Source: Tabrizicola piscis
Lineage (GTDB): Bacteria > Pseudomonadota > Alphaproteobacteria > Rhodobacterales > Rhodobacteraceae
Direction: 5' to 3'
NCBI RefSeq assembly: GCF_003940805.1
Contig: NZ_CP034328.1
Coordinates: forward strand, 2,728,001-2,792,000
Length of the DNA stretch: 64,000 nt
Below the pieces are notes generated by a model that was not told where the DNA came from, did not search any database, and saw only the letters and a list, made by a program, of their open reading frames with translations. A program made the position numbers and the translations under genes. Below, piece after piece: positions 29,093 to 41,803 of this stretch; the first letter of the stretch is position 1, and each line of letters begins with the position of its first letter.

Positions 29093-31165
29093 TCAGTTCC
29101 CTGCAACGGTCCGCAGCTCCAGTTGCAGAATTACCGGGCGGGCGGCTGACTCTTCCGTGTCATCCGTCAAGGCAATCGCGCCCCGCGTGGTTTCGCCAAA
29201 ACCGGCTTCGATCAAGGCGTCGCCAAAGGCCGAACCGCCAAGGCTTCGGTTCACGTCAACCGCGTCCTGGGCGAGATAGCCGAGGTCCTCGACCGGGCTT
29301 TGCGGCTTGGCGGGTGTCACCACGACCAGCATCCGTTCCTGCCCAAGAACGGTGTCGGTGATCTTGAACAGGCCTTTCTTCAACTCGTCCCCCGGCTGGA
29401 GACGGCCAGAGAACCAGTGGCTGATCGAATAGTCCGCCGCGATGTAGAGGACGTTCACGTCCACCGGTCCATCGGTGTTGTTGCGGGCAAGGACATGCAC
29501 TTCGTCATCGGGCAAAAGCGTGGGCACCGGGGCGAAGGGCAGCGCGCGCAGGGTGCGATCCTCGGGCGTGCGGGTCTGCAGTTCGACGGACACGTCAAGG
29601 CCTTCTGACCCCACGGCAGCGCCCAGCTTGAGCAGGTTTTGCGCCCGGGCGATCGTGGTCAGCGTGTCGGCAAGCGTGGCGGCAAGGGTGGCGCCATCCT
29701 TGTCGGCGGTCGAGACCGAGGGGGTGGTGCCCAGATCCTCGGCCAGGCCGGTTGACGGGAGGACCCAGATCGCATCCGGGCGCGGACTGTCGGGCAGGAC
29801 GGCAAGGCGCAGGTCGGCCTCATCCGTTGCCGGGACAAAGGTCAGGCGGGGGCCTGCGGCTGCGGACAGGTCTGCTAGGGCCGACAGCAAGGCGTCGGCG
29901 GGGGCAGAGCCGGGGGCGGGAAGGGCCACGGTCAGGGTGAAATCCACCGCCTCATCCAGCTTGCGCAGGGTGATGCCCTTGGGCAGGTCGGTTGGCAGGG
30001 TCTTGCCGTCCTTCGCAACCGGTTGGCCGGTGGCGGCGAAGGTGTCGACACTGGACAGGGTCACATAGCCAAGGGCCGCATCGGTGGTGTCGGCCGCGCT
30101 GGCCATCACCGCCATGACCGCGCCTTCGGCAAGGCCATGCAGGCTGCCTGCCGGGATGGTCAGACCCGTATCCGTCACCTCGGCCTGCCACTGGGCGACG
30201 CGGGTGCCGGGGTCGACCCCGAACACCACCTGATCCAGATCGCCTTCAAACAGCGGGGTGGACCGGGCGAGGTTCTTGACCGAATAGCGGCGCAGCACCT
30301 CTTGCCCGATCTGGCCATAAGTCGCGCCGGGGTATTCGGCCAGCACCTCCATCAGCGTCCAGGTGAAGACGCCCTGCGGCTTGCGGTCGGGTTTGCCCTT
30401 GGGCAGGTTCTTTTCCGGCGTCACCTCATTGGTCTGGGCGGCAAAGAAGGCGACGAAACTGCCTTCGCCCTCACCGGCATCAAACGGGGCTTCGACCCCA
30501 TCCCGCGGATCGCCGATGGAGCGGCTGACGACATCTTCCATCGCTTCGGGGTCCATCCCGAGGACCGAGGGCGAAAGCTGGCGGGTGCGGACCTCTTCCT
30601 CGGCGCCGTCAACGCCGCGGGTGGCTGTGCCGGAATGACAGCTGTCAAACACTGCCCAGACATTGGCCCCCTTGGCGCGAAGACCGTCGATCAGGGTGCC
30701 GATCTCATCATCAACTAGCGCGTTTTCCACGGCACCGACCTGATCGGACCAAGCGCCGATGTCGACGGGAAGGAACAACTCGTCCAGCCCATCAAGCTCG
30801 GAGGCGGGGTCAAGCGCGGGGGCCTGCGTGCCGTGGCCGGAGAAGTGCAGGTAGACGAAATCGCCGGGCTGGACCTTTGCGGTCAGGTCGGCAAAGGCGG
30901 TGCGGATGGCGGCCAGCGTGGGCGCGTCATAGCCTGCAACGCCATCGGTCAGCACCGTGACGTTTTCCGCTTCGAACGGCACAGGGGCGTTGGTGGTCAG
31001 GTATCCCGCCACCAGTTGCACATCGTTGGCCGGACCCTTCAGCCACCAGCGTTCTGCCAGGTTCTGATACTGGTTCGCGCCGATCAGGATGGCGTGGTTT
31101 TCCCGCGCCAGTGCCGGCAAAGCGGCAAGGCACAGGGCCGAAGCAAAAAGGGTGCGCAGCATCAT
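29093..31165 (-). CDS. Exported caspase-family (type I metacaspase-like) protein 1
   Basis: A 690-residue protein with a Sec signal peptide (MLRTLFASALCLAALPALA, cleavage near residue 20), so the protease acts outside the cytoplasm. The p20-like caspase domain spans about 22-310: the catalytic His is in HFSGHG (His111) and the Cys in FDSCHSG (Cys176). The acidic pocket residues that give metacaspases basic P1 preference seem kept (Asp48 in GPANDV; Asp174 in DSC). The C-terminal half (about 320-690) is beta-rich; a VNVLYIAADYSISHWF segment resembles DUF4384-type domains. ATG at 31163-31165 is preferred to a TTG at 31174. It follows PPC-protein 1 by 5 bp, so they form an operon. Paralogue of the gene at 36945. 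Confidence 0.9.
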   Translation of the reverse strand: MMLRTLFASALCLAALPALARENHAILIGANQYQNLAERWWLKGPANDVQLVAGYLTTNAPVPFEAENVTVLTDGVAGYDAPTLAAIRTAFADLTAKVQPGDFVYLHFSGHGTQAPALDPASELDGLDELFLPVDIGAWSDQVGAVENALVDDEIGTLIDGLRAKGANVWAVFDSCHSGTATRGVDGAEEEVRTRQLSPSVLGMDPEAMEDVVSRSIGDPRDGVEAPFDAGEGEGSFVAFFAAQTNEVTPEKNLPKGKPDRKPQGVFTWTLMEVLAEYPGATYGQIGQEVLRRYSVKNLARSTPLFEGDLDQVVFGVDPGTRVAQWQAEVTDTGLTIPAGSLHGLAEGAVMAVMASAADTTDAALGYVTLSSVDTFAATGQPVAKDGKTLPTDLPKGITLRKLDEAVDFTLTVALPAPGSAPADALLSALADLSAAAGPRLTFVPATDEADLRLAVLPDSPRPDAIWVLPSTGLAEDLGTTPSVSTADKDGATLAATLADTLTTIARAQNLLKLGAAVGSEGLDVSVELQTRTPEDRTLRALPFAPVPTLLPDDEVHVLARNNTDGPVDVNVLYIAADYSISHWFSGRLQPGDELKKGLFKITDTVLGQERMLVVVTPAKPQSPVEDLGYLAQDAVDVNRSLGGSAFGDALIEAGFGETTRGAIALTDDTEESAARPVILQLELRTVAGN

Positions 31166-31170
31166 GTCTC

Positions 31171-31818
31171 TCAATTTGTCATCAATGCGTAGGCGGCCGA
31201 GCTTGGCCCCTTGTTTTCAACTTTCAGCGTGAAGGTGCCACCTTGCGCGGGCGTCCAGCCGCAATAGGCGATGTGGGAAATATCGGTGTCGGTGCAGACA
31301 AGACGGCCCTTGTCATCAAGGATCGTCAGGTTGACGTTGGTGGCGGCCTTCGCCTCGACATAGACCTCGGCATATTCGCCGCCGCGAAACTCGATCGGGG
31401 GGTAGGTGTCGCCGCCGCCATTCGACAGGCTTCCGATGTTGTAGACCGGGCCGGAGGCGACGCCCTTAGTGGACTCGGCCCGGATGTCGGCGATCAGGCC
31501 CAGAAGAAGGTCATCGCCAGCGGCAAGCGTTTCGGCGGCGGCAAGCATCTCTTCCCAGCCAAGCGGTGCCCCTTCGGCGGGCTGGCCGCCAACAGGCACC
31601 CGATTGCCCGCCACCGGGGCAAGCGTCTTGCGCAGCTTTGCGGCGGACAGGATCAACAGCGGGTCTGCAGCCGCAAGGCCGGCATCGTAAAGCCGGGCGG
31701 AAAGTTCAGCCACCTTTACGGGCGATGCGGTATCTGCCCCGATCTTTGCCCCGACGTCTGCCACGACGGGCAGTGTCAGGGTTGCGGTCAGCAGGGCAGC
31801 AAGCAGGGTGCGATGCAT
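31171..31818 (-). CDS. Exported PPC-like domain protein 1
   Basis: A 215-residue secreted protein I cannot name. It has a signal peptide (LLAALLTATLTLPVVA), a helical N-terminal half (ARLYDAGLAAADPLLILSAA) and a C-terminal beta-domain (about 135-215) resembling bacterial pre-peptidase C-terminal (PPC) sandwiches: EVYVEA, VNLTILDDKGRLVC, a second Cys in AYCGWTP and a final strand TFTLKVENKG. The two Cys align in all three paralogues (here, 40070-40894 and 41004-41690) and probably form a disulfide. It heads the operon with metacaspase 1, and its promoter shares the 17-bp motif at 31895. Confidence 0.75.
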   Translation of the reverse strand: MHRTLLAALLTATLTLPVVADVGAKIGADTASPVKVAELSARLYDAGLAAADPLLILSAAKLRKTLAPVAGNRVPVGGQPAEGAPLGWEEMLAAAETLAAGDDLLLGLIADIRAESTKGVASGPVYNIGSLSNGGGDTYPPIEFRGGEYAEVYVEAKAATNVNLTILDDKGRLVCTDTDISHIAYCGWTPAQGGTFTLKVENKGPSSAAYALMTN

Positions 31819-31894
31819 GGGTGAACTGGTCCGGTGTCAGATATTGCAGTGAAGATGCGTCCCGGCGGGGCGCCTGTAAATGCGCGATTTTTCC

Positions 31895-31911
31895 ATGACG
31901 GCCTTTGTCAT
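31895..31911. promoter_or_regulatory. Shared 17-bp operator-like site, copy 1
   Basis: On the minus strand the site reads ATGACAAAGGCCGTCAT: inverted ATGAC/GTCAT half-sites with a 7-nt spacer. It sits in the 153-bp divergent promoter region between PPC-protein 1/metacaspase 1 (76 bp away) and the HtrA-like/two-component operon (60 bp away). Copies at 36878 and 40982 share 13 of 17 positions (ATGACAAA-N4-GTCAT). Confidence 0.7.
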
Positions 31912-31971
31912 GTGCCCTTGTGAAACGGCACTGCTAGCAAGGCGGAAACGAGGCAAGGCAGAGGTTTCATC

Positions 31972-33324
31972 ATGATGGCCGGACAACGGGCTGACGTCGG
32001 TCGGGACAGGAAGGGGCGCAAGCGGACACAGCCGCGTCGCTACCTTGTCGAGGTGCTGGCTGCGCTGGTGGTGATCGTGCTGGTGGCGCTGGTCGGGCCG
32101 GCAACAGCCTCGCCCTTGGATCAGGCGATGGACCGGGTGTTCACAGTGCACAGCGCCGATGCCGAGGATCGGTTTCTGGGGTCGGCCTTCCTGTGGGGCG
32201 ATGGGTCGGTCGCGGTGACGAATGCCCATGTGGTGGGCACGGCGGACGAGGTTCGGCTGGTGGACCGCCACGGCACCGAGGAAACCGCGCTGGTCATCGC
32301 GCGGGATGCCGTGCGGGATGTGGCGGTGATCGCCGTCGCGCCGGGGCGGACGGGTCTGGTGCTGGCGACCGATGCGGTTGGTCTGGGGGATGAGGTCTTT
32401 GCCCTTGGCGCGCCCTTGGGGGTTGAGTTCACGTTGACCGTTGGCCGGATTTCGGCAACCGCCCGTCAGGTGGAAATCACCGTCCCGCTGCGGATGCTGC
32501 AGCATGACGCGGCAGTCAATCCAGGGTCCTCCGGTGGACCCTTGGTGGACATCGACGGGCGGCTAGTTGGCATGAACAGCCAGATCGCCGATGGCAGCCG
32601 GATGTTCGTGGGCATCGCCTATGCAATCTCGGCCATGGACCTTGATGCCATCGTTACCGGGCTGATCGAGGAAACGTTGGCCCCGTTCCCCTCGCTTGGG
32701 CTGACGGCGCGGCCGGTGGACCGGCAGGTGGCGGCGGCGCTGGGGGTCGATGCGGCGGGGTTGCTGGTGGATGGGGTGACCCCCGGCGGTCTGGCCGAAG
32801 CGGCGGGCCTGCGCGGCGGGGACATCATCCTGGCGGTGGACGGGACCAAGCTGGAGCAGCCCGGCGATCTGGCCTTTGCGGTGGAACGCGCCAGTGCGTC
32901 GGGTGCGACGGTGCTTGCCGTGCTGCGCGACGGTGATCGGCTGGACCTGCCAGTACCGCTGACGACCAACGTCGAGGCGACGGGCCTGAGGCTGCGGCAA
33001 ATGTCGCCCGCTTTGCCGGAAACGGTGCAGTCCTACCGGCTGTCGGCGCTGGGCGTGGTTCTAGCGGATGGCGGGCTGGTTTCGGCGGTCACCGACAACT
33101 CACCCGCGGTCTTCGCGGGGCTGGCGCAGGGCGACCGGATTCTGACGGTGAACGGGGCCACGGTGGACCTTGCGAACTATGAGGTGACCAAGGCCGTGCT
33201 GCTTTTGGTCAGGTCGCCGGGCGGGCTGACCCGGCATATCTATCTTGATCCCTGGGGCGCGCATGATGGTGTGCGACCGGTGGGCGGGGCAAATGTGCTT
33301 GACCCCGACGTTGTCGTGTTCTGA
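31972..33324 (+). CDS. Membrane-anchored HtrA/DegS-like serine protease with two PDZ domains
   Basis: A 450-residue S1C protease. A basic N-terminus (KGRKRTQPRR) precedes one hydrophobic segment (LVEVLAALVVIVLVALVGPA), giving either a signal peptide or an inner-membrane anchor with the body in the periplasm. The protease domain (about 50-225) has an intact triad: His86 (TNAHVV), Asp116 (RDVAVI) and Ser187 (NPGSSGG). Two PDZ domains follow (about 240-325, GLRGGDIIL; about 350-430, GLAQGDRIL). ATG at 31972; the ATG at 31975 is equivalent. It is immediately followed by the response regulator, so proteolysis and signalling are in one operon, reminiscent of DegS-type envelope sensing. Confidence 0.88.
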   Translation: MMAGQRADVGRDRKGRKRTQPRRYLVEVLAALVVIVLVALVGPATASPLDQAMDRVFTVHSADAEDRFLGSAFLWGDGSVAVTNAHVVGTADEVRLVDRHGTEETALVIARDAVRDVAVIAVAPGRTGLVLATDAVGLGDEVFALGAPLGVEFTLTVGRISATARQVEITVPLRMLQHDAAVNPGSSGGPLVDIDGRLVGMNSQIADGSRMFVGIAYAISAMDLDAIVTGLIEETLAPFPSLGLTARPVDRQVAAALGVDAAGLLVDGVTPGGLAEAAGLRGGDIILAVDGTKLEQPGDLAFAVERASASGATVLAVLRDGDRLDLPVPLTTNVEATGLRLRQMSPALPETVQSYRLSALGVVLADGGLVSAVTDNSPAVFAGLAQGDRILTVNGATVDLANYEVTKAVLLLVRSPGGLTRHIYLDPWGAHDGVRPVGGANVLDPDVVVF

Positions 33325-33338
33325 ATGAGGGGATGGGC

Positions 33339-34034
33339 ATGGACGAGCGTATCCTGATCGTCGAGGACGATGCCGAAACCGCCGCCGCGGTGCGCGCGGT
33401 GGTCGAAGGCATGGGCTGTAGTGTCGATCACTGCGACACGCTGGACGCGGGGATCGCGGCGGCGACCAGCACCCCCTACAAGGTCATCGTGCTGGACCGG
33501 ATGCTGCCCGGCGGTGACGGGGTCGAGGCAATGGCGCGCATCAGGGCCGGGGGGTCGACCGCACTGATCCTGATCCTGTCGGCCTTGGGCCGCGCGGCGA
33601 ACCGGGTTGAGGGGCTGGAAAAGGGGGCGGATGATTACCTGCCGAAGCCCTTTGAGCCGGATGAGTTGCGCGCGCGGGTCCGGGCCCTGTTGCGGCGGGG
33701 CACGATGCAGGTGCTGGACAATGACCTGCTGGTCTTTGGCGATCTGGAAATCCGGCTGAAGGCGCGGACCGTGCATGTAAAGCGCACCCATGTCGCGGTT
33801 TCCCCCAAGGAGTTTGAGCTGATCACCTATTTCGCCCGCAATGCCGGGCAGGTCGTCACCCGGATGCAGTTGCTGGAAAACGTCTGGAACCTGCATTTCG
33901 ACCCCGGCACGAATGTGGTGGATGTCCACGTTGGCCGCTTGCGGCGCAAGCTGGAGGAGGCGGGGTCCTTGGCCATTCAGACCGCGCGGGGCGAAGGCTA
34001 TGTCTTCGCGCCCTTGCCCGGGTCGCCGGGGTGA
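33339..34034 (+). CDS. OmpR/PhoB-family response regulator
   Basis: A 231-residue transcription regulator. The receiver domain (1-118) has the acidic pair EDD (residues 9-11), the phospho-acceptor Asp53 (VIVLDRMLPGGDG), the switch Ser in ILSALGR and Lys103 (LPKPF). The C-terminal winged helix (about 130-225) includes VAVSPKEFELITYFARNAGQ and VDVHVGRLRRKLEEAG. ATG at 33339 is chosen; an ATG two codons upstream exists. It overlaps the kinase by four bases. It is the natural candidate to bind the 17-bp inverted repeats found in this cluster. Confidence 0.93.
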   Translation: MDERILIVEDDAETAAAVRAVVEGMGCSVDHCDTLDAGIAAATSTPYKVIVLDRMLPGGDGVEAMARIRAGGSTALILILSALGRAANRVEGLEKGADDYLPKPFEPDELRARVRALLRRGTMQVLDNDLLVFGDLEIRLKARTVHVKRTHVAVSPKEFELITYFARNAGQVVTRMQLLENVWNLHFDPGTNVVDVHVGRLRRKLEEAGSLAIQTARGEGYVFAPLPGSPG

Positions 34035-35392
34035 TTTCCCGCCGCCCCCTTGCCGCGCGGGCCACGTTGCGGCTGGCGGCGGTGATGGCGCTTGCGGTGA
34101 CCCTGCTGTCCCTTGGCGCGATGGCCCTGCAATACCGGCTTGTCGAGGCGCGGCTGATGCAGGCGCAGCGGGCGCTGCTGTCGGCGGATCTGGACGGGTT
34201 CGCAGCGCTTTACGACCAGCGCCGGATCATCGCCCTGCGGCAGGCGATCGACTATCGCGCGGCGGCGGCGACGGGTGGGGAGATGCTCCTGCTGCTGGAT
34301 CGCAATGGCACTGTGCTGGCAGGCACGCGGGGCGGCTGGCCGGAGGGGTTGCAGGCCGAGGGTGACAGCTTCGCCGTGGAACCCGCCCGCGCGTTTTCTG
34401 AGGCTGGCACACGCTGGCTGGCAGTGGCGCGCGACTTGCCGGGGGGCTTTCCCCTGCTGGTCGCGCGCAGCCTGCAGCCGGTCGATGACACGCTGGCGGC
34501 GATGCGGCGGGGGATGCTGGCCCTGTTGGCCGCGATGCTGGTGGCGGGGGGCGTGGTCGGCTGGCTGGCGGCGCGGTCGGTCATGGGGCGGATCGGGCGG
34601 CTGAATGATCTGGCGGATCGGGTGGCCGAAGGCGCGCTGGACGCGCGCTTGCCGGGGCCACGGTCGCCCGATGAGTTCGGGCTCTTGGAAACCCATGTGC
34701 ACGGGATGCTGGACCGCATCCAGAACCTGAACCGCGCGACGCACCGGCTGTCCGATACCATCGCGCATGAACTCCGCACCCCCTTGAACCGGATGCTGCT
34801 GAAACTGTCCCGGATCGAGGGTCAGGAAGACCTGGCCGCCGACCTGCGGGCCGAAATGCGCCAGGCGATCCGGATGTTCGATTCGCTTCTCGACATCAGC
34901 CGGGCCGAGGCGGATCAGGGCAGCGGCGGCGGGCTGGTGCCCGTGGACCTGTCAGCCGTGGCGGGGGAGGTTTGGGAGCTTTACGAACCCCTGGCCGAGG
35001 ACAAGGGTCTGGACGCACAAGCCCTGATCGCGCCGGGCCTGCGTGTGCTGGGGGACCGCAACCTGATTGCGCAGCTTTTGTCGAACCTTCTGGACAACGC
35101 CATCAAGTACTGTGCGAAGGGCGACCTGCTGACCCTGACCGTGGCCGAAGCGGGCGACAGCATCCTGATGCGCGTGGCCGATACCGGCCCCGGCCTGCCC
35201 GCCGACATGCGGGGCGCCGCGTTTGAACGGTTTGTGCGCGCCGACCGTGACCGGGGGATCAAGGGCCATGGTCTTGGCCTCGCCCTGGTGCGGGCGATTG
35301 CGGCGCGGCATGGCGCGCGGCTGACATTGCCCGAAGGCAATACCGGATTCACGCTTGAAATCCTGTGGCCAAGGCTTCAGCAATCGGACTGA
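34031..35392 (+). CDS. Sensor histidine kinase
   Basis: A 453-residue inner-membrane kinase starting at GTG (34031), overlapping the regulator stop (GTGA). TM1 is about residues 13-33, a periplasmic sensor about 34-160 has no recognisable fold, TM2 is about 161-181, and a HAMP domain about 182-235. The phospho-accepting His246 lies in SDTIAHELRTPLN. The ATPase domain shows the N-box NLLDNAIKY (Asn356), G1 DTGPGLP and G2 GHGLGLAL. All catalytic parts are intact. It is the partner of the preceding regulator. What it senses is unknown; the extracytoplasmic location of all neighbouring effectors suggests an envelope signal. Confidence 0.93.
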   Translation: MISRRPLAARATLRLAAVMALAVTLLSLGAMALQYRLVEARLMQAQRALLSADLDGFAALYDQRRIIALRQAIDYRAAAATGGEMLLLLDRNGTVLAGTRGGWPEGLQAEGDSFAVEPARAFSEAGTRWLAVARDLPGGFPLLVARSLQPVDDTLAAMRRGMLALLAAMLVAGGVVGWLAARSVMGRIGRLNDLADRVAEGALDARLPGPRSPDEFGLLETHVHGMLDRIQNLNRATHRLSDTIAHELRTPLNRMLLKLSRIEGQEDLAADLRAEMRQAIRMFDSLLDISRAEADQGSGGGLVPVDLSAVAGEVWELYEPLAEDKGLDAQALIAPGLRVLGDRNLIAQLLSNLLDNAIKYCAKGDLLTLTVAEAGDSILMRVADTGPGLPADMRGAAFERFVRADRDRGIKGHGLGLALVRAIAARHGARLTLPEGNTGFTLEILWPRLQQSD

Positions 35393-35414
35393 CCCAACCC
35401 ATTTCAGGCCATGC

Positions 35415-36857
35415 ATGCGCCGCGCCGTATTTTCCCTTCTGTTGCTTCTGGGCTGTGCCCCCTGGAACCAGCCCTTGAACCAGCCGCTTCAGGATGAAAA
35501 CGCCCCGCTGGTCGAACCTGCCGTCGTTGGCGATGGCGAGCTTTACATCGGCCTGGCCTTTTCAGGCGGCGGTTTAAGGGCAACCTCCTTTGCCTATGGC
35601 ATGCTGGAGGAGTTGCGTGCCGCAGGCGTCGAAACCGGGTCGCCCAACGGGCTTCTGGATCAGGTGCGGCTGGTGTCGGGGGTGTCGGGCGGGTCGATCA
35701 TGGCTGCGCAGTTCGGGCTTTACGGCCCCGCAGGCGTGCCCGGCTTTCGTGAGCGGTTCCTCGTGACGGATGGCGAGGCTTACATGGTCACCTCGGGCCT
35801 GAACCCGCTGACCATCGCCAAGGGCGTGGCAGGCGGGGTGAACGGGCGCGACACTTTCGGGCGCTATCTGGACGACACGCTGTTCAAGGGTGCCACCTTT
35901 GGCGATCTGCGGAAACGGTCGCGCATCAAGACCTGGATCAACGCGACGGATATGGCCAACAACACGCCGTTCCTGTTCAGCCCCGAAACCTTCGATGCCC
36001 TGTGTTCGGACCTGTCCAAAGTGCGGCTCAGCGAAGCGGTTGCCGCCAGCGCGGCCTTCCCGCTGGTGTTCACCCCCATCGTGCTGAAGGCGCATCAGGG
36101 CAAGTGCGACTACCGCGAACCCGATTGGCTGACCGCCGCGCGCTATAACCCCGAGGCGACGGCAGCGATGCGCGCCCATGCCCGGGCGCTGGAAAGCTAT
36201 ACCAACCCCGAGGAAGTGAAGTTCGTCAAACTGCTGGATGGCGGGATCACCGACAATTTCGGCACCACCGGCCTTGCGGTGGAACGCGCCCGCGCGCAGG
36301 TGCCCTATGCGCCTTTGACCGAGGAAGAGGCGGTCAAGCTGAAGCGGATGCTGTTCCTTGTCGCCAACGCGGGGGTCGAGGAAGACTATGATTGGACGCA
36401 GAAAGTGGCGGGGCCGGGCGGGGTGAATCTGGCGATGTCGATTGCCACCAGCGCCATGTCTGCCGCCAGCCGGTCCGGCTACGACTCCATGCGTGGCGAG
36501 CTGCGGTTCTGGGAGGCGGAGCTGATCGAATGGCGCTGCGCCCTGCCGATGGCCGAGGTGCGACGACTGCGCGGATCAACGGCGGGGTGGGATTGCAAGG
36601 ACGTCAAGCTGTTCGTGGGCGAGGCGAGCTTTGCCAGCCTGCCCCCAGACATGCGCGACGCGCTGAACAAGGTGCCGACCCGGTTGAAGCTGAAGACGTC
36701 GGATGTGGACATGGTGATCGAGGCCGGGCGGCTGGCGACCCGGATGACGCCTGAGTTCAACGGCTTTCTCGCCTCGCTCTCCGGCAATGCCGTGGACAGC
36801 CGGATCGAGGCTGGCATCGCTGCTGGCGGGCGGCGGGTGATGCCGCTGGGCAATTGA
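35415..36857 (+). CDS. Patatin-like phospholipase, lipoprotein
   Basis: A 480-residue lipoprotein: MRRAVFSLLLLLGC gives a lipobox with acylated Cys14. The patatin domain (about 40-330) has the oxyanion motif FSGGGLRATSF, the nucleophile Ser91 in SGVSGGS and the catalytic Asp275 in LLDGGITDN, so the Ser-Asp dyad is complete. It should hydrolyse phospholipid acyl esters at the periplasmic face of a membrane. ATG at 35415 follows the kinase stop by 22 bp. The gene completes the HtrA-like/two-component operon. The C-terminal 150 residues have no family I recognise. An active phospholipase exported to the envelope is potentially self-harmful, which implies tight control. Confidence 0.9.
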   Translation: MRRAVFSLLLLLGCAPWNQPLNQPLQDENAPLVEPAVVGDGELYIGLAFSGGGLRATSFAYGMLEELRAAGVETGSPNGLLDQVRLVSGVSGGSIMAAQFGLYGPAGVPGFRERFLVTDGEAYMVTSGLNPLTIAKGVAGGVNGRDTFGRYLDDTLFKGATFGDLRKRSRIKTWINATDMANNTPFLFSPETFDALCSDLSKVRLSEAVAASAAFPLVFTPIVLKAHQGKCDYREPDWLTAARYNPEATAAMRAHARALESYTNPEEVKFVKLLDGGITDNFGTTGLAVERARAQVPYAPLTEEEAVKLKRMLFLVANAGVEEDYDWTQKVAGPGGVNLAMSIATSAMSAASRSGYDSMRGELRFWEAELIEWRCALPMAEVRRLRGSTAGWDCKDVKLFVGEASFASLPPDMRDALNKVPTRLKLKTSDVDMVIEAGRLATRMTPEFNGFLASLSGNAVDSRIEAGIAAGGRRVMPLGN

Positions 36858-36877
36858 CCAAAGGGCTTGGCTCCGGA

Positions 36878-36894
36878 TGACAAATCACGTCATC
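36878..36894. promoter_or_regulatory. Shared 17-bp operator-like site, copy 2
   Basis: ATGACAAATCACGTCAT, extended to a 7-bp inverted repeat (GGATGAC/GTCATCC). It begins 20 bp after the patatin stop and ends 50 bp before the metacaspase 2 start. It matches the sites at 31895 and 40982. Confidence 0.75.
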
Positions 36895-36923
36895 CGCAGC
36901 AACCCGCTTGTTCCGGGCAGGGC

Positions 36924-36937
36924 CCACGATATCGTGG
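36924..36937. promoter_or_regulatory. 14-bp palindrome before metacaspase 2
   Basis: CCACGATATCGTGG is a perfect palindrome ending 7 bp before the ATG at 36945, where a ribosome-binding site would be expected; no ordinary Shine-Dalgarno is present. It may be a protein-binding site or an RNA hairpin limiting translation of the protease. Confidence 0.45.
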
Positions 36938-36944
36938 CCGCATC

Positions 36945-38888
36945 ATGCGCACGACATTTGCATATCCTTTGATCTTTGCGGCAAGTTTGGCCGGCACTGC
37001 CGCCGTGGCCGAGGTGCGCGCCGTTCTGGTGGGGGTCAGCGATTACCTCGTGCTGGACGCAGACCTGAAAGGCCCTGCCAACGACGTGCGGCTGATGGCG
37101 GAAACGCTGGCCTTGCGCGGTGTCGATCCCGCAGCGATGACCGTGCTGACCGCTGAACCCGCAGGCCTGCCCGACGGCGTTTCGACAGCCGCCCCGCTGC
37201 GGGACACCATCCTTGCGGCGATGGAGGTGGTCGCTGCGGCCTCGGTCGCCGGGGATACGGTGGTGTTCTACTATTCCGGCCATGGCGCGCAGGCCCCGGA
37301 CATGTCGGGGGACGAGGGCGGGGGGTATGACGAGATCCTGCTGCCCGCCGACGCCGCAGGGTGGAAGGGGGCGATCGGCGCGGTGGAGAATGCCATTCTG
37401 GACGATGAATTGCAGGCTTGGGCGCAAGGGATGCTGTCGCGCGGCGTGCAGGTTGTGGGCCTGATCGACGCCTGCCATTCGGCCACCGGGTTCCGCGCGG
37501 TTGGCGGGCAGGGCGTGGCGCGGGTGGTGGACGAAGCGGCGCTGGGGATTCCCGACGACGTGGTGCCAGTGACGGGTGCGCCCCTGCCGCCGCTGACGGG
37601 GGAGTTCGTGTTCCTTTACTCCTCGCAATCCGACCAGCGGTCGTTTGAATATCCGCTGGCGGATGGCGCGACATGGCATGGCGAGTTTACCTTGCGGCTG
37701 GCCCAGACCCTGCGGGATGCGCCTGCGGCCAGCTGGGCGCAGGTGCTGGCGGCCACCACCGAAGGCATGGCGCAGGGCCCGGCCCGGCAGATGCCGGAAG
37801 GCGAAGGCACGCTGCTTGAGGCGCAGGTGTTTGGCACCGGCGCAGGTGCGGCCCGGATGGCCGTTGCGGACGGGCGGCTTGCGGCGGGTCTGCTGCACGG
37901 GCTGGCTACGGGGGCTGAGGTAGCGCTTTTTGCCAGCCCGTCGGGCGGCGAGGCGCTGGCCGTCCTGCCCTTGGGGGAAGTGACGGCGCGGCAGGCCGTG
38001 CTGGCGGGCGACGTGCCGGACGGCGCGGTTTGGGCCGAACTGGTCAGCGCGCCGCCGCCCGCGCCGCTGGTGCTGGCCGCACCGGTGCGGGCGGATGTGA
38101 ACGACGGCTTTGACTACTCCCGTTGGCAGGCGGTCTTGCCGCCCGCCGGCCCGGTTGCCGATCTGGTGCCGATCCTGACCGAGGGGACTGTGGCGCTGGC
38201 CGGGGCGGATGGGGTGCTCGACCCCGCAGGTCCGGGATCGTCGCCCCGGATCGTGGCGCTGCCCGGCATGACCGAGGCCGAAGCGGTGGCGCAGATGCTG
38301 GAGCAGGCTGCACATGGGCTTGGCCTGCGTGCGGTCTTGTCGGGGGCCACCGGGCGGGCGCTGGTGGGCAGGCAGGCGATCAGCATGGCGGTGGAACGCC
38401 GTGCGGCGGATGCCGCCTGCGGAGCGCTGACCGAAGCGGTGCCCTACGACCCGGCCGCAGGCGTTGCGCCTTGCGATCAGCTTTGGGTGACGCTGACGAA
38501 TACGGGCGGCAAGGCGCAGGATGTCAGTGTCCTGTACTTCGCCGCCGATTTCACCGTGACGCCGATCTGGCCGGTGCAGAACCTTGCCAACCGGCTGGCC
38601 CCGGGGGAAACGGTGCGCGTGGGCCTGATGATTGAAGACGGCAGCGTGGCGGGGCTGGAAGAGATCTGGGTCCTCGCCGTGCCGGTGGACCCCGACGCGC
38701 CACGGGTGGACCTGACCCGCCTTGCCACCCCTGCCGCAAACCGCGCGCTTGGCGGTACAGACCCGATGACGGAGTGGTTGGAGTCCCGCCTGACAGGCGA
38801 CAGCACCGCCACACGCGGATTTACTCTGAAACCCGCCCCGCTGACGATGATCCGCCAACAGGTGCGACTGACCCCCCGGGATGGATGA
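36945..38888 (+). CDS. Exported caspase-family (type I metacaspase-like) protein 2
   Basis: A 647-residue paralogue of the 29.1-kb metacaspase. Signal peptide about 1-22 (LIFAASLAGTAAVA). Caspase domain about 24-310: catalytic His113 (YYSGHG) and Cys177 (IDACHSA), with pocket acids Asp47 (GPANDV) and Asp175. The DSC of copy 1 is DAC here. The C-terminal half again carries the DUF4384-like strand VSVLYFAADFTVTPIWP. ATG at 36945 is the first Met before the signal peptide. It is co-transcribed with the chymotrypsin-fold zymogen 26 bp downstream. Intact catalytic residues and export predict an active envelope protease rather than a cytoplasmic defence effector. Confidence 0.9.
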   Translation: MRTTFAYPLIFAASLAGTAAVAEVRAVLVGVSDYLVLDADLKGPANDVRLMAETLALRGVDPAAMTVLTAEPAGLPDGVSTAAPLRDTILAAMEVVAAASVAGDTVVFYYSGHGAQAPDMSGDEGGGYDEILLPADAAGWKGAIGAVENAILDDELQAWAQGMLSRGVQVVGLIDACHSATGFRAVGGQGVARVVDEAALGIPDDVVPVTGAPLPPLTGEFVFLYSSQSDQRSFEYPLADGATWHGEFTLRLAQTLRDAPAASWAQVLAATTEGMAQGPARQMPEGEGTLLEAQVFGTGAGAARMAVADGRLAAGLLHGLATGAEVALFASPSGGEALAVLPLGEVTARQAVLAGDVPDGAVWAELVSAPPPAPLVLAAPVRADVNDGFDYSRWQAVLPPAGPVADLVPILTEGTVALAGADGVLDPAGPGSSPRIVALPGMTEAEAVAQMLEQAAHGLGLRAVLSGATGRALVGRQAISMAVERRAADAACGALTEAVPYDPAAGVAPCDQLWVTLTNTGGKAQDVSVLYFAADFTVTPIWPVQNLANRLAPGETVRVGLMIEDGSVAGLEEIWVLAVPVDPDAPRVDLTRLATPAANRALGGTDPMTEWLESRLTGDSTATRGFTLKPAPLTMIRQQVRLTPRDG

Positions 38889-38914
38889 TCCCGCCATTGC
38901 CATGGAGTATTGAG

Positions 38915-39973
38915 ATGACACTTCCCCGTTTGTCCGCCACCGTCCTGCTGGCTGCCCTGTGCGCCCCGGCGGCCCATGCCGAGGACCAGCCCGGCTTCGC
39001 CCCCCCGGACGCGGCGCAAACCGCATCGCCCTTTGAATACGCGAAGACCGGGGCCAAGGCCGCCCGGGCGGACACAGCCGAAGCGGCGGGGGCCAAGGTC
39101 ATCGGCGGCGAGGTTGCCGCCGAAGGGGCCTGGCCCTGGCAGGTTGCGCTTCTGGTCGGGGGTGCTCCGGTCGGGGTCGACAGCCAGTTCTGCGGCGGGT
39201 CGCTGGTCATGGACCAATGGGTGCTGACAGCGGCGCATTGCGTGCATATGCGCCAGCAGGACGGCAGCTATGCCGATCTTTGGCCGCAGGAAATCTCCAT
39301 CCTCGTCGGCACGAACGAACTGACCCCCGGCAAGGGTGACCTGATCCCGGTCGAGGCGGTGTTCCGGCATCCGTCCTACGCCGGCACGCAATTTGATTTC
39401 GACATTGCCCTGCTCAAGCTGTCACGGGCACCGCAAGCGCCCTACCAGACCATCGAAGTGCCGGATGCAGACTTCGGCAGCATGCTGAACCAGCAAGGCG
39501 TGACCACCATTGTCACTGGCTGGGGCTTGCAGGAAGGGGCCATGCCCGCGCCCGAACTGCGGCAGGCGCAGATTCAGGTGCTGGACCGGAACCTGTGCAA
39601 CGCCGCCATGCTGGAGGCGCGGGCCGAAGATGCGGCGGGCGGCTTCAGCTATGCGGTGCAGACGCTGAACCTGGCCGAAGCGGATGCCTATGCGCTTTGG
39701 GACGAACTGATCGCGCGGGCCCCGATGCCGGTCAGTGAGAACATGATCTGTTCGGGCACGTTCGAGGGCGGCAAGACCAGCTGCAACGGCGACAGTGGCG
39801 GCCCGCTGGTCGTGCCGCTGGACGATGGCAGCTATATCCAGGCCGGGATCGTCAGCTGGGGGCTTAGCGCAAGCTCGGGCCGGGGGTGCGAAGAGACGGC
39901 GCTGTTTTCCGCCTATACCGACATTTCGAAGTTCGTGCCCTGGCTGAACCAGGTGATCGCCGAAAACCCGTGA
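38915..39973 (+). CDS. Chymotrypsin-fold (S1A) serine protease zymogen
   Basis: A 352-residue exported protease: signal peptide 1-22 (ends AAHA), propeptide about 23-61, then the mature N-terminus VIGGE after Lys61. The triad is intact: His108 (TAAHC), Asp163 (DFDIALL) and Ser294 (GDSGG). The residue at the base of the S1 pocket (six before the Ser) is Thr288, not the Asp of trypsin, so basic P1 specificity is not expected. Cleavage after Lys61 is needed for activation and fits a Lys/Arg-specific protease such as the metacaspase encoded just upstream. Start supported by GGAG at 38904-38907. S1A proteases are uncommon in alphaproteobacterial cores. Confidence 0.9.
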   Translation: MTLPRLSATVLLAALCAPAAHAEDQPGFAPPDAAQTASPFEYAKTGAKAARADTAEAAGAKVIGGEVAAEGAWPWQVALLVGGAPVGVDSQFCGGSLVMDQWVLTAAHCVHMRQQDGSYADLWPQEISILVGTNELTPGKGDLIPVEAVFRHPSYAGTQFDFDIALLKLSRAPQAPYQTIEVPDADFGSMLNQQGVTTIVTGWGLQEGAMPAPELRQAQIQVLDRNLCNAAMLEARAEDAAGGFSYAVQTLNLAEADAYALWDELIARAPMPVSENMICSGTFEGGKTSCNGDSGGPLVVPLDDGSYIQAGIVSWGLSASSGRGCEETALFSAYTDISKFVPWLNQVIAENP

Positions 39974-40016
39974 TGGCAAGCCGACTGCGGCGGGGCAAGG
40001 TTCTGCCCTGTCAAGC

Positions 40017-40047
40017 AAAAGGGCCCGCAGCCGGTTGCTGCGGGCCC
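40017..40047 (-). terminator. Intrinsic terminator of PPC-protein 2
   Basis: GGGCCCGCAGC (40021-40031), loop CGGTT, GCTGCGGGCCC (40037-40047), an 11-bp stem; on the minus strand it is followed by TTTTGCTTG. It ends minus-strand transcripts and may also act on the convergent protease transcript. Confidence 0.88.
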
Positions 40048-40069
40048 CTTGATATCCGGCGGGTTGGGG

Positions 40070-40894
40070 TCAGTTGGTCATCAGGTAATAGCTGTTCCTG
40101 ACCCGGCCCATGTTCTGGACCGTCACGTAGAAATAGCCGTTCCACGCCGGGGTGAAATCGCAATAAAGCGAGTCCGACCAGCTGACATCGTAGCAAAAGA
40201 CATTCCCGTTCTCATCGGTGATCGCCACGTCAAGGTCAGTATCGCCATCGCCCACGACCGCGATTTCAGCGTAGGAATTGCCGTAGAATGGAATCTCCCA
40301 CACATCGGTCTGGCCTGCGGGCAAGCGCGACAGCCAGCTGACGGCACCGCCGATCCGGCCGCGCGACCCTTCGGCCATCGCATCGTCGATCAGGCCAAGA
40401 AGCACCTCGTCATCGGCGGCAAGCTCCTTGGCCTTGGCAAACATCGCATCCGCCGTGACAGGGCCTTCGGCGGCGCCTTCGTCTTCCGAGGTGGCGTTGA
40501 AGAAAGTGGCCTTGGACGCAGCGCGCGGCTCACCCTCGTTCATCATCGGGGCCGGGGCGGCGGGGGCGGCGGCGGGGGCCGCCTTCTTGCGCAGGCTTTC
40601 CTGATCGCCCTCTTCGAAGACGATCTTCGCCGGGTCCAGCGCTGCGGCTTCAGCACTGGTGACATCGACCGACGCGGCCAGCTTGGCGGCTGCCAGCACG
40701 GTCAGCGCGTCGCCCTGCTCGACGCCAAGCGCATAAAGATCCTGGGCAAGGCCCATCGTCGTGGCGCCGCCAGCGGCTGTCGCGGTGGCGGCGGGGTCGA
40801 TGTTGGTGCCCGATGTATCCTGGGCAATTGCGGGAAAGGCCAGCGCGACCAGAGAAGTGGTTGCCAGCGCAAGGGAAATGGATTTCAGCGTCAT
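40070..40894 (-). CDS. Exported PPC-like domain protein 2
   Basis: A 274-residue secreted protein: signal peptide about 1-24 (ends PAIAQ), helical segment with DLYALGVEQGDALTVLAAAK, an Ala/Pro-rich linker (about 105-125), a second helical segment (LAADDEVLLGLIDDAM) and the C-terminal beta-domain (about 195-274) with GQTDVWEIPFYG, DLDVAITDENGNVFC, LYCDFTP and the ending YYLMTN. Both Cys match paralogues 1 and 3. Ligand or partner unknown; PPC domains often accompany secreted proteases. The promoter contains the 17-bp site at 40982, and a strong terminator follows. Confidence 0.77.
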   Translation of the reverse strand: MTLKSISLALATTSLVALAFPAIAQDTSGTNIDPAATATAAGGATTMGLAQDLYALGVEQGDALTVLAAAKLAASVDVTSAEAAALDPAKIVFEEGDQESLRKKAAPAAAPAAPAPMMNEGEPRAASKATFFNATSEDEGAAEGPVTADAMFAKAKELAADDEVLLGLIDDAMAEGSRGRIGGAVSWLSRLPAGQTDVWEIPFYGNSYAEIAVVGDGDTDLDVAITDENGNVFCYDVSWSDSLYCDFTPAWNGYFYVTVQNMGRVRNSYYLMTN

Positions 40895-40981
40895 GTCTGA
40901 TCCTGTGGGTTGGCCGACCCGGTCTGGGCCGGAGTGCCGCGATCTTGGCAGGACCCTTTCCGTTTGAGAAGGGCGCATGGC

Positions 40982-40998
40982 ATGACAAATTCGGTCAT
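40982..40998. promoter_or_regulatory. Shared 17-bp operator-like site, copy 3
   Basis: ATGACAAATTCGGTCAT lies 87 bp upstream of the PPC-protein 2 start and just after the stop of PPC-protein 3. Downstream in the direction of transcription (40960-40974, minus strand) is GCCCTTCTCAAACGG, which also follows site 1 toward the HtrA-like gene as GCCCTTGTGAAACGG (31914-31928). Two promoters therefore share a motif pair. Confidence 0.72.
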
Positions 40999-41003
40999 CT
41001 GCA

Positions 41004-41690
41004 TCAGTTGCCGATAAGGCGATAGCTGTTCACCGTAGCGCCGGGATTGTGGATGCTGGCCGTGAAAAACCCGTTGCGGGCCGGGGTCAGGCGGCAAAGC
41101 GCGGGGTCACGCGACAGCGGCGAGGCGCAAAGGATGTTGCCCGCCTCATCAGTCAGGGTCAGGGACAGGGGGCCATCGCCATCGCCGATCAGGGCAAGTT
41201 CGGCCGCCACCTCGCCGAACAGGGCAAGGCGCCAGGTGTCGGTCTGGCCGGGGCCAAGGTCGGCCCTTGCCTCGGTCGCGGTTTCCAGGCGGCCTCGCGG
41301 CAGCTGGGCATCAAGGTCATAGGCCAGATCCTGCAGATCGGGATCGTCGCCCACAAGGTTCCGGGCGATGGCAAGCGCTGCGGCACTTGCCGGATCGGGG
41401 GCGGCGGTGCGGCCCGTCGGGGCGTCGGGGACGGGATCGCCAATGGTTGTCCGCTCCCACCCGCCGGCAGGGCGCAGGGTGACGCTGCGGGCAAGGCGGA
41501 TGGCGACCAGCATGGGCAGAACGTCGCCCGTGGAAAGGGCTTGGTCCCAAGTGCGCTGAGCCAGGATCAGACGCTGGGCCGTGCCATGGGAACCGGACGG
41601 GTTGGCCGACAGGTTCGGCTCCTCTGCGCTGGCGGGGGCCAGACCCAGAGCAAGGATCAGGGCAGACAAAAGGCTGGTGCGGCGGGTCAT
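41004..41690 (-). CDS. Exported PPC-like domain protein 3
   Basis: A 228-residue secreted protein, the most divergent of the three paralogues. Signal peptide about 1-22 (ends PASAE). The N-terminal helix (QALSTGDVLPMLVAIRLAR) and the DPDLQDLAYDLDAQL helix match those of proteins 1 and 2. The C-terminal domain (about 148-228) has GQTDTWRLALFG, LSLTLTDEAGNILC, ALCRLTP and the ending YRLIGN, with both Cys kept. ATG at 41688-41690. No copy of the 17-bp site is seen in the 113 bp upstream, so it may be regulated differently. Confidence 0.72.
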   Translation of the reverse strand: MTRRTSLLSALILALGLAPASAEEPNLSANPSGSHGTAQRLILAQRTWDQALSTGDVLPMLVAIRLARSVTLRPAGGWERTTIGDPVPDAPTGRTAAPDPASAAALAIARNLVGDDPDLQDLAYDLDAQLPRGRLETATEARADLGPGQTDTWRLALFGEVAAELALIGDGDGPLSLTLTDEAGNILCASPLSRDPALCRLTPARNGFFTASIHNPGATVNSYRLIGN

Positions 41691-41803
41691 CGGCGGTTTT
41701 CCAAGGCTGGGGCGGACTGTGGCAAAGCCAGCCTGTGGGGACAAGTGAGGAAACCTTTCCGCGCCCGCGATTTCCCGGTAGCACGAAGGAAACGGAGGTG
41801 ACC

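Follow-up and report, generated by a model that had tools for sequence, protein, structure and literature searches.

A 17-bp inverted repeat as the probable operator of an OmpR-type regulator in a caspase-trypsin-HtrA-patatin gene cluster of Tabrizicola piscis and its relatives

How is the expression of two caspase homologs, a zymogen-like trypsin, an HtrA-type protease and a patatin-like phospholipase coordinated when their genes lie in several transcription units around a single two-component system? The question is raised by a 64,000-nucleotide stretch of the Tabrizicola piscis genome (assembly GCF_003940805.1, contig NZ_CP034328.1, positions 2,728,001 to 2,792,000), hereafter the window, whose numbering is used below unless a locus is named. 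To our knowledge, the signal or the regulator has been established for few bacterial caspase homologs. An initial annotation had noticed a 17-bp inverted repeat in three promoter regions of this cluster and proposed it as an operator of the cluster's OmpR-type response regulator (RR), encoded beside a sensor histidine kinase (HK). This proposal is supported by the conservation of the sites, by their presence at relocated cluster genes and by their co-occurrence with the regulator gene, and comparative sequence analysis makes it very probable that the element is the operator of the regulator encoded at 33333-34034, its own operon included.

All three 17-bp sequences are present in the window and have 13 of 17 positions in common. 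The first, which reads ATGACAAAGGCCGTCAT on the minus strand of 31895-31911, and the third stand where they had been placed, and the second occupies 36877-36893, one base off from the 36878-36894 first given. The pattern ATGACAAA-N4-GTCAT was found in three exact copies in the whole genome (4,387,422 bp, five contigs), all within the cluster, and ATGACAAANNNNGTCAT is matched exactly at the same three places (Table 1) and with one mismatch at two others. When purine and pyrimidine were allowed at the two ends (R/Y), the genome still yielded three exact matches, together with 20 one-mismatch matches. In the window, the unrelaxed pattern had eight matches with up to two mismatches, one being the third site read in reverse; 0.64 would be expected from shuffles. 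The many unrelated matches that the initial annotation had named as a possible objection were thus not seen in the genome scan. The three sites serve four directions, the first lying between the PPC1-metacaspase 1 and htrA-RR-HK-patatin operons, the second upstream of metacaspase 2-trypsin and the third upstream of PPC2; their distances to the start codons are 76 bp (PPC1), 60 bp (HtrA), 51 bp (metacaspase 2) and 87 bp (PPC2), so that the 50-90 bp estimated earlier proved accurate (51-87 bp).

The element was followed through orthologous promoters of other Rhodobacteraceae with the patatin gene as the marker of the cluster. Of the 295 sampled family genomes, 18 had a patatin match (E ≤ 1e-30, 41-100% identity); the named loci with a match numbered 42, of which 41 were at ≥60% identity and one at 32%. 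Named carriers include Tabrizicola aquatica, T. soli, T. thermarum, Pseudorhodobacter, Thalassobius, Seohaeicola and Shimia, the genomes of T. soli, T. aquatica and T. thermarum being of the same genus as the window genome (degP matches at identical coordinates). The footprint set consisted of loci L054-L115, from which five duplicates (L054-L057, L063) and five loci lacking the cluster (L066, L070, L072, L073, L114) were removed, that is, 52 loci plus the window, and a spacer was counted only if complete and in the expected order, which left 45, 38 and 22 spacers for operators 1, 2 and 3. The best match to RTGACAAANNNNGTCAY had 0 mismatches in 34 of the 45 PPC1-HtrA spacers, one in four and two in six, with none (within three) in the remaining spacer; in the 38 patatin-metacaspase 2 spacers, 26 had 0 mismatches, seven had one, three had two, one had three and one had no match; upstream of PPC2, the 22 regions had 0, one, two and three mismatches in 12, three, six and one cases, respectively. 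These exact counts lean slightly towards the pattern, its R/Y ends having been derived from the same loci, which are moreover not independent. The site was therefore kept at ≤1 mismatch in 38/45, 33/38 and 15/22 promoters, always in one orientation per promoter (38/38, 33/33 and 15/15, 86 sites in total); from Markov shuffles, no more than 0.04 segments at ≤1 mismatch were expected per class. A lack of conservation in orthologous promoters, another objection foreseen in the initial annotation, was thus not observed.

A single spacing of the half-sites was seen. RTGAC and GTCAY were found 7 bp apart in 36/45, 30/38 and 12/22 spacers, and spacings of 5, 6, 8 or 9 bp occurred in none of the 45, 38 and 22. 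The matrix of the 86 sites preserves TGACA of the left half in at least 84/86, the AAA at positions 6-8 in 86, 86 and 80 of 86, and C at position 11 in 74/86; the right half keeps GTCA, but at its sixth base the A of ATGACA has a mirrored counterpart in 17/86 sites only, and no mirrored TTT appears on that side. Since AAA is conserved with no mirrored TTT, the element is an asymmetric pseudo-palindrome, refined as RTGACAAAkSCYGTCAY.

Sites were also found at cluster genes that lie away from the regulator gene. A regulator match (E ≤ 1e-60) was present in 21/295 sampled family genomes. In one of them (G034), PPC2 and metacaspase 2-trypsin, 1.37 Mb and 1.65 Mb from the regulator, both have exact sites (L193, L194); in another (G121), the same applies to PPC2 at about 24 kb and metacaspase 2 at about 232 kb (L190, L160), and in G247 PPC2 is on a separate contig from the regulator with an exact site upstream (L172). 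Within the genus, there are further copies of PPC2 and metacaspase 2 that are separated from the regulator and bear the site, although some of these separations may be draft-assembly breaks; in G312 and G321, the relocated copy and the regulator share one contig, about 25 kb apart. Reading from the genes rather than from the sites, 13 further loci showed proper metacaspase 2 and PPC2 genes with 0 to 2 mismatches, the Pseudosulfitobacter plasmid copy having a two-mismatch site. The best match at metacaspase 2 of G040 was a one-mismatch match on the other strand.

The distribution of sites follows that of the regulator. In the genus, the regulator was found in 25/32 genomes (E ≤ 1e-70), and exact sites numbered 93 in these 25 as opposed to four in the seven genomes without it (Mann-Whitney 4.6e-5, uncorrected for kinship). 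The 93 comprise 46 sites no more than 12 kb away from the regulator (not all of them inspected), six more on contigs carrying pieces of the cluster, 12 upstream of PPC2 and three upstream of metacaspase 2 elsewhere, six upstream of tolQ, three upstream of a DUF5333 gene, two by a small secreted protein and 15 in no class (two of those unread). Family-wide, exact copies of ATGACAAANNNNGTCAT numbered 19 in 21 regulator-bearing genomes and 66 in the 274 genomes without a regulator match. One of the latter (G020) keeps patatin, PPC1 and metacaspase 1, and no site within two mismatches was found in its 20-kb cluster stretch. As for the two sites by a small secreted protein, they are exact, stand at matching places in two relatives (L318:3950 and L347:3763) and lie upstream of that gene, next to which is a gene that resembles, by eye, one for a VWA protein.

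Several observations weigh against assigning the element to the cluster regulator. The genomes lacking the regulator still carry ATGACAAANNNNGTCAT at 0.24 per genome across the 274 family members, and G020 has three exact refined-pattern sites elsewhere in its genome. The counts with and without the regulator partly mirror the presence of the cluster genes themselves, kinship makes the genomes non-independent, and completeness is only 80-81% for two of the seven regulator-less genus genomes. The search for relocated genes began from the sites, and relocated genes without a site would mostly escape it; metacaspase 2 of G247 has a two-mismatch site (same side, same orientation), and G204 has one-mismatch variants. 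More diverged regulators mostly go with weaker sites (e.g., L065, L067, L068 and L069), and the locus L060, whose regulator is 73% identical, has at least two mismatches at both measured promoters. Finally, a direct repeat is the usual arrangement for regulators of the OmpR class, from which the head-to-head site described here differs. This last concern, already voiced in the initial annotation, is answered by the copper or silver regulators CopR, PcoR, AgrR and LciR, which are of the same kind and are described as binding inverted repeats (PMC7380067, PMC6989116).

Several distant orthologs of the regulator (54-66% identity) go with variant sites such as GTGAAAAATGCCGTCAT (L134, a plasmid-borne cluster of Pseudosulfitobacter), and exact first-promoter sites accompany two distant regulators, at L106 (58%) and L107 (64%). 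The recognition-helix stretch TNVVDVHVGRLRRKLE is near-invariant in the orthologs read, among which no change matching the TGAA variant sites (L069, L134, L185) was visible, and co-variation of the helix with the variant sites is for that reason not claimed.

The identity of the regulator was approached by profile comparison. It scores 168.5 of 296.2 bits with the PhoB model TIGR02154 and 168.7 of 279.2 bits with the cztR/silR/copR model TIGR01387, and the best NCBIfam model of the kinase is cztS/silS/copS TIGR01386 (165.8 of 292.55 bits, below the cut-off). Since the two regulator scores are nearly equal and below both cut-offs, the protein was not classed with the copper regulators. Its identity to CusR of E. 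coli is 40%, and ATGACAAAATTGTCAT is present in the cusR-cusC spacer of that species. The two boxes are alike in being head-to-head repeats with an ATGACAA left half-site, placed in a divergent spacer that adjoins an OmpR-type regulator gene. They differ in that 7 bp, instead of 6, separate ATGAC and GTCAT in the present element, whose right half lacks the mirrored TTT and agrees in the outer bases only; moreover, the targets here are proteases and secreted proteins rather than copper efflux functions, and there are three operators instead of one spacer. Operators of the CusR/CopR/AgrR class have two inverted ATKACA half-sites, with 6 bp between ATKAC and GTMAT (6-4-6 or 7-2-7 layout); RTGAC and GTCAY were at this distance in none of the 45, 38 and 22 spacers.

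Three further systems are comparable. The AgrR box of Cupriavidus metallidurans likewise combines an OmpR-type regulator with an inverted repeat, an activator position and autoregulation, but has the consensus ATKACANNNNTGTMAT, with 6 bp between the outer 5-mers, and governs a silver/copper regulon (PMC7380067). LciR of Legionella pneumophila is a CusR-homologous regulator with an inverted repeat reported not to occur elsewhere in that genome, but this repeat, ATTACAAnnTTGTAAT, has another half-site and spacing, and a single gene is activated (PMC6989116). CenKR of Rhodobacter sphaeroides, a related bacterium, includes an OmpR-type regulator of envelope genes, tolQ among them, but recognizes the direct repeat TGA-N8-TGA and is essential there (PMC9275681), as opposed to the regulator studied here, matched in only 21/295 sampled family genomes.

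The flanks of the sites indicate where the promoters may lie. On the HtrA side, a conserved TGnTAG..A contains a -10-like TAGCAA 23 bp from the site edge; on the PPC1 side, TTTACA stands at 14 bp and CATCTT at 37; the metacaspase 2 side has CTTG at 13 and TATnnT at 36, and the PPC2 side has CTTCTCAA at 10 and a CAAGAT-like block at 34. In two loci (L097, L111), the PPC1-side TTTACA is found at 25 bp, a shift of 11 bp or about one helical turn. A sigma-70 scan of 31700-41200 gave no promoter match, and the assignment of these blocks as -35 and -10 elements is therefore made from their conservation. If it is right, the site centres would be near -44 for htrA and at -55 to -58 for the other three promoters, positions that precede the -35 contact of RNA polymerase and are those taken by activators. 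Sites upstream of -35-like blocks in all four directions would fit an activator; for R. sphaeroides CenR, activated units are reported to be those with sites upstream of -35, and repressed ones to have sites overlapping the promoter or the start site (PMC9275681).

On the preferred reading, two regulator subunits would bind head to head, one at rTGACAAA and the other at GTCAy, and the regulator, bound just upstream of the -35 region, would activate the PPC1-metacaspase 1, htrA-RR-HK-patatin, metacaspase 2-trypsin and PPC2 units. Activation of htrA-RR-HK-patatin would amount to positive autoregulation, and the sensor-regulator pair of the cluster would thereby turn on all four units together. 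Direct binding by this regulator, activation in preference to repression and a signal arising in the envelope are all points that we infer.

Additional sites extend the possible regulon beyond the cluster. In T. piscis itself, a one-mismatch site, ATGACAAATGCCTTCAC, lies in the hflC-degP region upstream of degP (L201:2540-2556), a gene that follows hflC and whose product passes the Do-family cut-off, and another, ATGACAAGTGCCGTCAC, lies upstream of a DUF5333 gene (L200:2923-2939); at the corresponding position, exact sites are present in three relatives of the genus. The degP region was compared across genomes by counting sites with ≤1 mismatch, in the same orientation and 129-150 bp upstream of the reference start, strands being assigned by tblastn. 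In the family, such a site was found in 6/21 genomes with the regulator and 0/27 without it (the 27 hand-picked from 274), and a seventh regulator-bearing genome (G087) has it on the other strand; in the genus, 14/24 with the regulator and 1/7 without it had the site (Fisher 0.05), G311 being excluded as its degP match begins inside the gene. Three of eight other regulator-bearing named genomes also have it, and in 10/24 regulator-bearing genus genomes the site is weaker or missing. Among the seven regulator-less genus genomes, G320 has the left half of the degP site unaltered, two have it with one base changed and four in a more decayed state. TTCAC, the right half, is retained even where the regulator is absent, and because it persists while the left half decays in these genomes, an overlapping element at degP is likely. 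On balance, degP is a probable target.

Exact sites were also found upstream of tolQ in six genus relatives (L321, L323, L325, L328, L337 and L338); in L321, profile matches identified TolQ and TolR, and the other five loci were grouped with L321 by sequence similarity. In T. piscis, no tolQ match was found at the 20 one-mismatch loci or in the window. The counts for tolQ (six genomes) and DUF5333 (three genomes) come from regulator-bearing genomes only. Together, the sites at degP, tolQ and DUF5333 in some relatives suggest a wider envelope regulon, and the regulon as a whole is probably an envelope-damage response, the extension being less certain than the core.

The sites at tolQ and degP, both envelope genes, also bear on an alternative, namely that the operator belongs to a factor encoded elsewhere, such as CenR or another OmpR paralog, the targets of the cluster regulator being different ones. 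In R. sphaeroides, tolQRAB is under direct activation by CenR (PMC9275681), and G320, the one regulator-less genus genome in seven that retains a one-mismatch degP site, would agree with such a factor. However, the CenR motif given there is the direct repeat TGA-N8-TGA, which neither the 17-mer nor any of the three window spacers contains, and CenKR is called conserved in alpha-proteobacteria in a heading of the same paper, so that it would not explain why the sites go with the cluster regulator. Nor does the cluster offer another candidate: among the ten scanned proteins of 29093-41744, the sole DNA-binding regulator is the RR at 33333-34034 (receiver plus Trans_reg_C). An outside factor is accordingly an unlikely owner of the sites.

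Similarly, it is improbable that the cluster regulator binds these sites as a repressor. Response regulators can both activate and repress, and CenR does both (PMC9275681), but in each of the four directions the -35-like block comes after the site, which does not lie over the -35/-10 elements or the start. The possibility that the repeats act as RNA, as terminators or attenuators, instead of as DNA operators draws on the location of operators 2 and 3 just past the stop codons of upstream same-strand genes and on the folding of the operator 2 region, better than its shuffles (z -4.33); yet the other two regions show no folding advantage over their shuffles (z -0.21 and -0.23), the terminator scan includes none of the three sites, operator 1 lies between divergent genes and the conserved asymmetric AAA is needless for a hairpin, all of which renders this explanation highly improbable. 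Chance similarity, conceivable because the motif fixes a mere 13 bases and arms of 5 bp are common, is refuted almost beyond doubt by the three exact copies being the only ones in the genome and by their retention in orthologs.

The features of the locus are collected in Table 1.

Table 1. Putative operators, candidate promoter elements and genes of the cluster (window coordinates).
Feature	Position	Strand	Basis or remark
Putative operator 1	31895..31911	-	exact motif; common to the divergent PPC1-metacaspase 1 and HtrA-RR-HK-patatin operons
Putative operator 2	36877..36893	+	exact motif; upstream of metacaspase 2-trypsin
Putative operator 3	40982..40998	+	exact motif; upstream of PPC2
Probable -10 (TGcTAGCAA), HtrA-RR-HK-patatin operon	31935..31940	+	23 bp from site edge; conserved column block
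Probable -35 (TTTACA), PPC1-metacaspase 1 operon	31875..31880	-	14 bp from site edge; flank conservation
Probable -35 (TTGTTC), metacaspase 2	36908..36913	+	conserved CTTG block
Probable -10 (TATCGT), metacaspase 2	36930..36935	+	conserved TATnnT block
Probable -35 block (CTTCTCA), PPC2	40965..40971	-	conserved CTTCTCAA block
OmpR/PhoB-type response regulator	33333..34034	+	Pfam Response_reg, Trans_reg_C; proposed to bind the operators
Sensor histidine kinase, proposed partner	34031..35392	+	Pfam HAMP, HisKA, HATPase_c
HtrA-type protease, first gene of regulator operon	31972..33324	+	Trypsin_2, two PDZ stretches
Patatin-like phospholipase	35415..36857	+	Pfam Patatin
PPC1, secreted protein (label of the initial annotation)	31171..31818	-	open reading frame
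Metacaspase 1	29093..31168	-	Peptidase_C14
Metacaspase 2	36945..38888	+	Peptidase_C14
Trypsin-family protease, zymogen-like VIGG site	38915..39973	+	Pfam Trypsin 6.6e-45; VIGG by eye
PPC2, secreted protein (label of the initial annotation)	40070..40894	-	open reading frame

PPC1 and PPC2 match no Pfam family at E ≤ 0.001, and none above its own cut-off at E ≤ 1. A PPC2-like gene (41004-41744, minus strand) lies directly upstream of operator 3, and the order PPC2-like gene, site, PPC2 is preserved in many relatives in which PPC2 is elsewhere. In the trypsin-family protein, the K-VIGG stretch resembles, by eye, a zymogen activation site; orthocaspases are described as cleaving after positively charged residues (PMC6426788), and a secreted caspase-to-trypsin cascade is conceivable. 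The plasmid of Pseudosulfitobacter pseudonitzschiae mentioned above (L134, NZ_CP054608.1 10801-29379) carries, beside replication and partition genes, most of the cluster, namely two caspases, HtrA, RR, HK, patatin and a serine protease, with the variant sites GTGAAAAATGCCGTCAT and GTGAAAAACACTGTCAG.

Taken at its widest, the interpretation is tentative, and the odds are somewhat against its holding in full: a dedicated envelope-damage two-component system of the Rhodobacteraceae may possess its own operator type, with half-sites 12 bp apart from start to start, and may govern one caspase-trypsin zymogen-HtrA-patatin regulon that survives gene dispersal, degP, tolQ and DUF5333 having been recruited in some species. 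In the literature on bacterial caspases, HtrA and Rhodobacter envelope stress, as seen through titles and abstract openings, no paper describing the cluster or the motif was found. What is new is the regulon, that is, a sensor pair over a caspase-trypsin-HtrA-patatin module, together with the spacing variant, the principle being already known. Through the operator, a single sensor kinase would be linked to two caspase homologs, a zymogen-like trypsin, an HtrA and a phospholipase, and an exact DNA sequence is now available for testing when the proteins of the caspase cluster are made. Moreover, the element is a naturally occurring variant of the CusR-type inverted repeat that differs in spacing, and the family offers a system for studying how genes keep their operator after moving out of a cluster.

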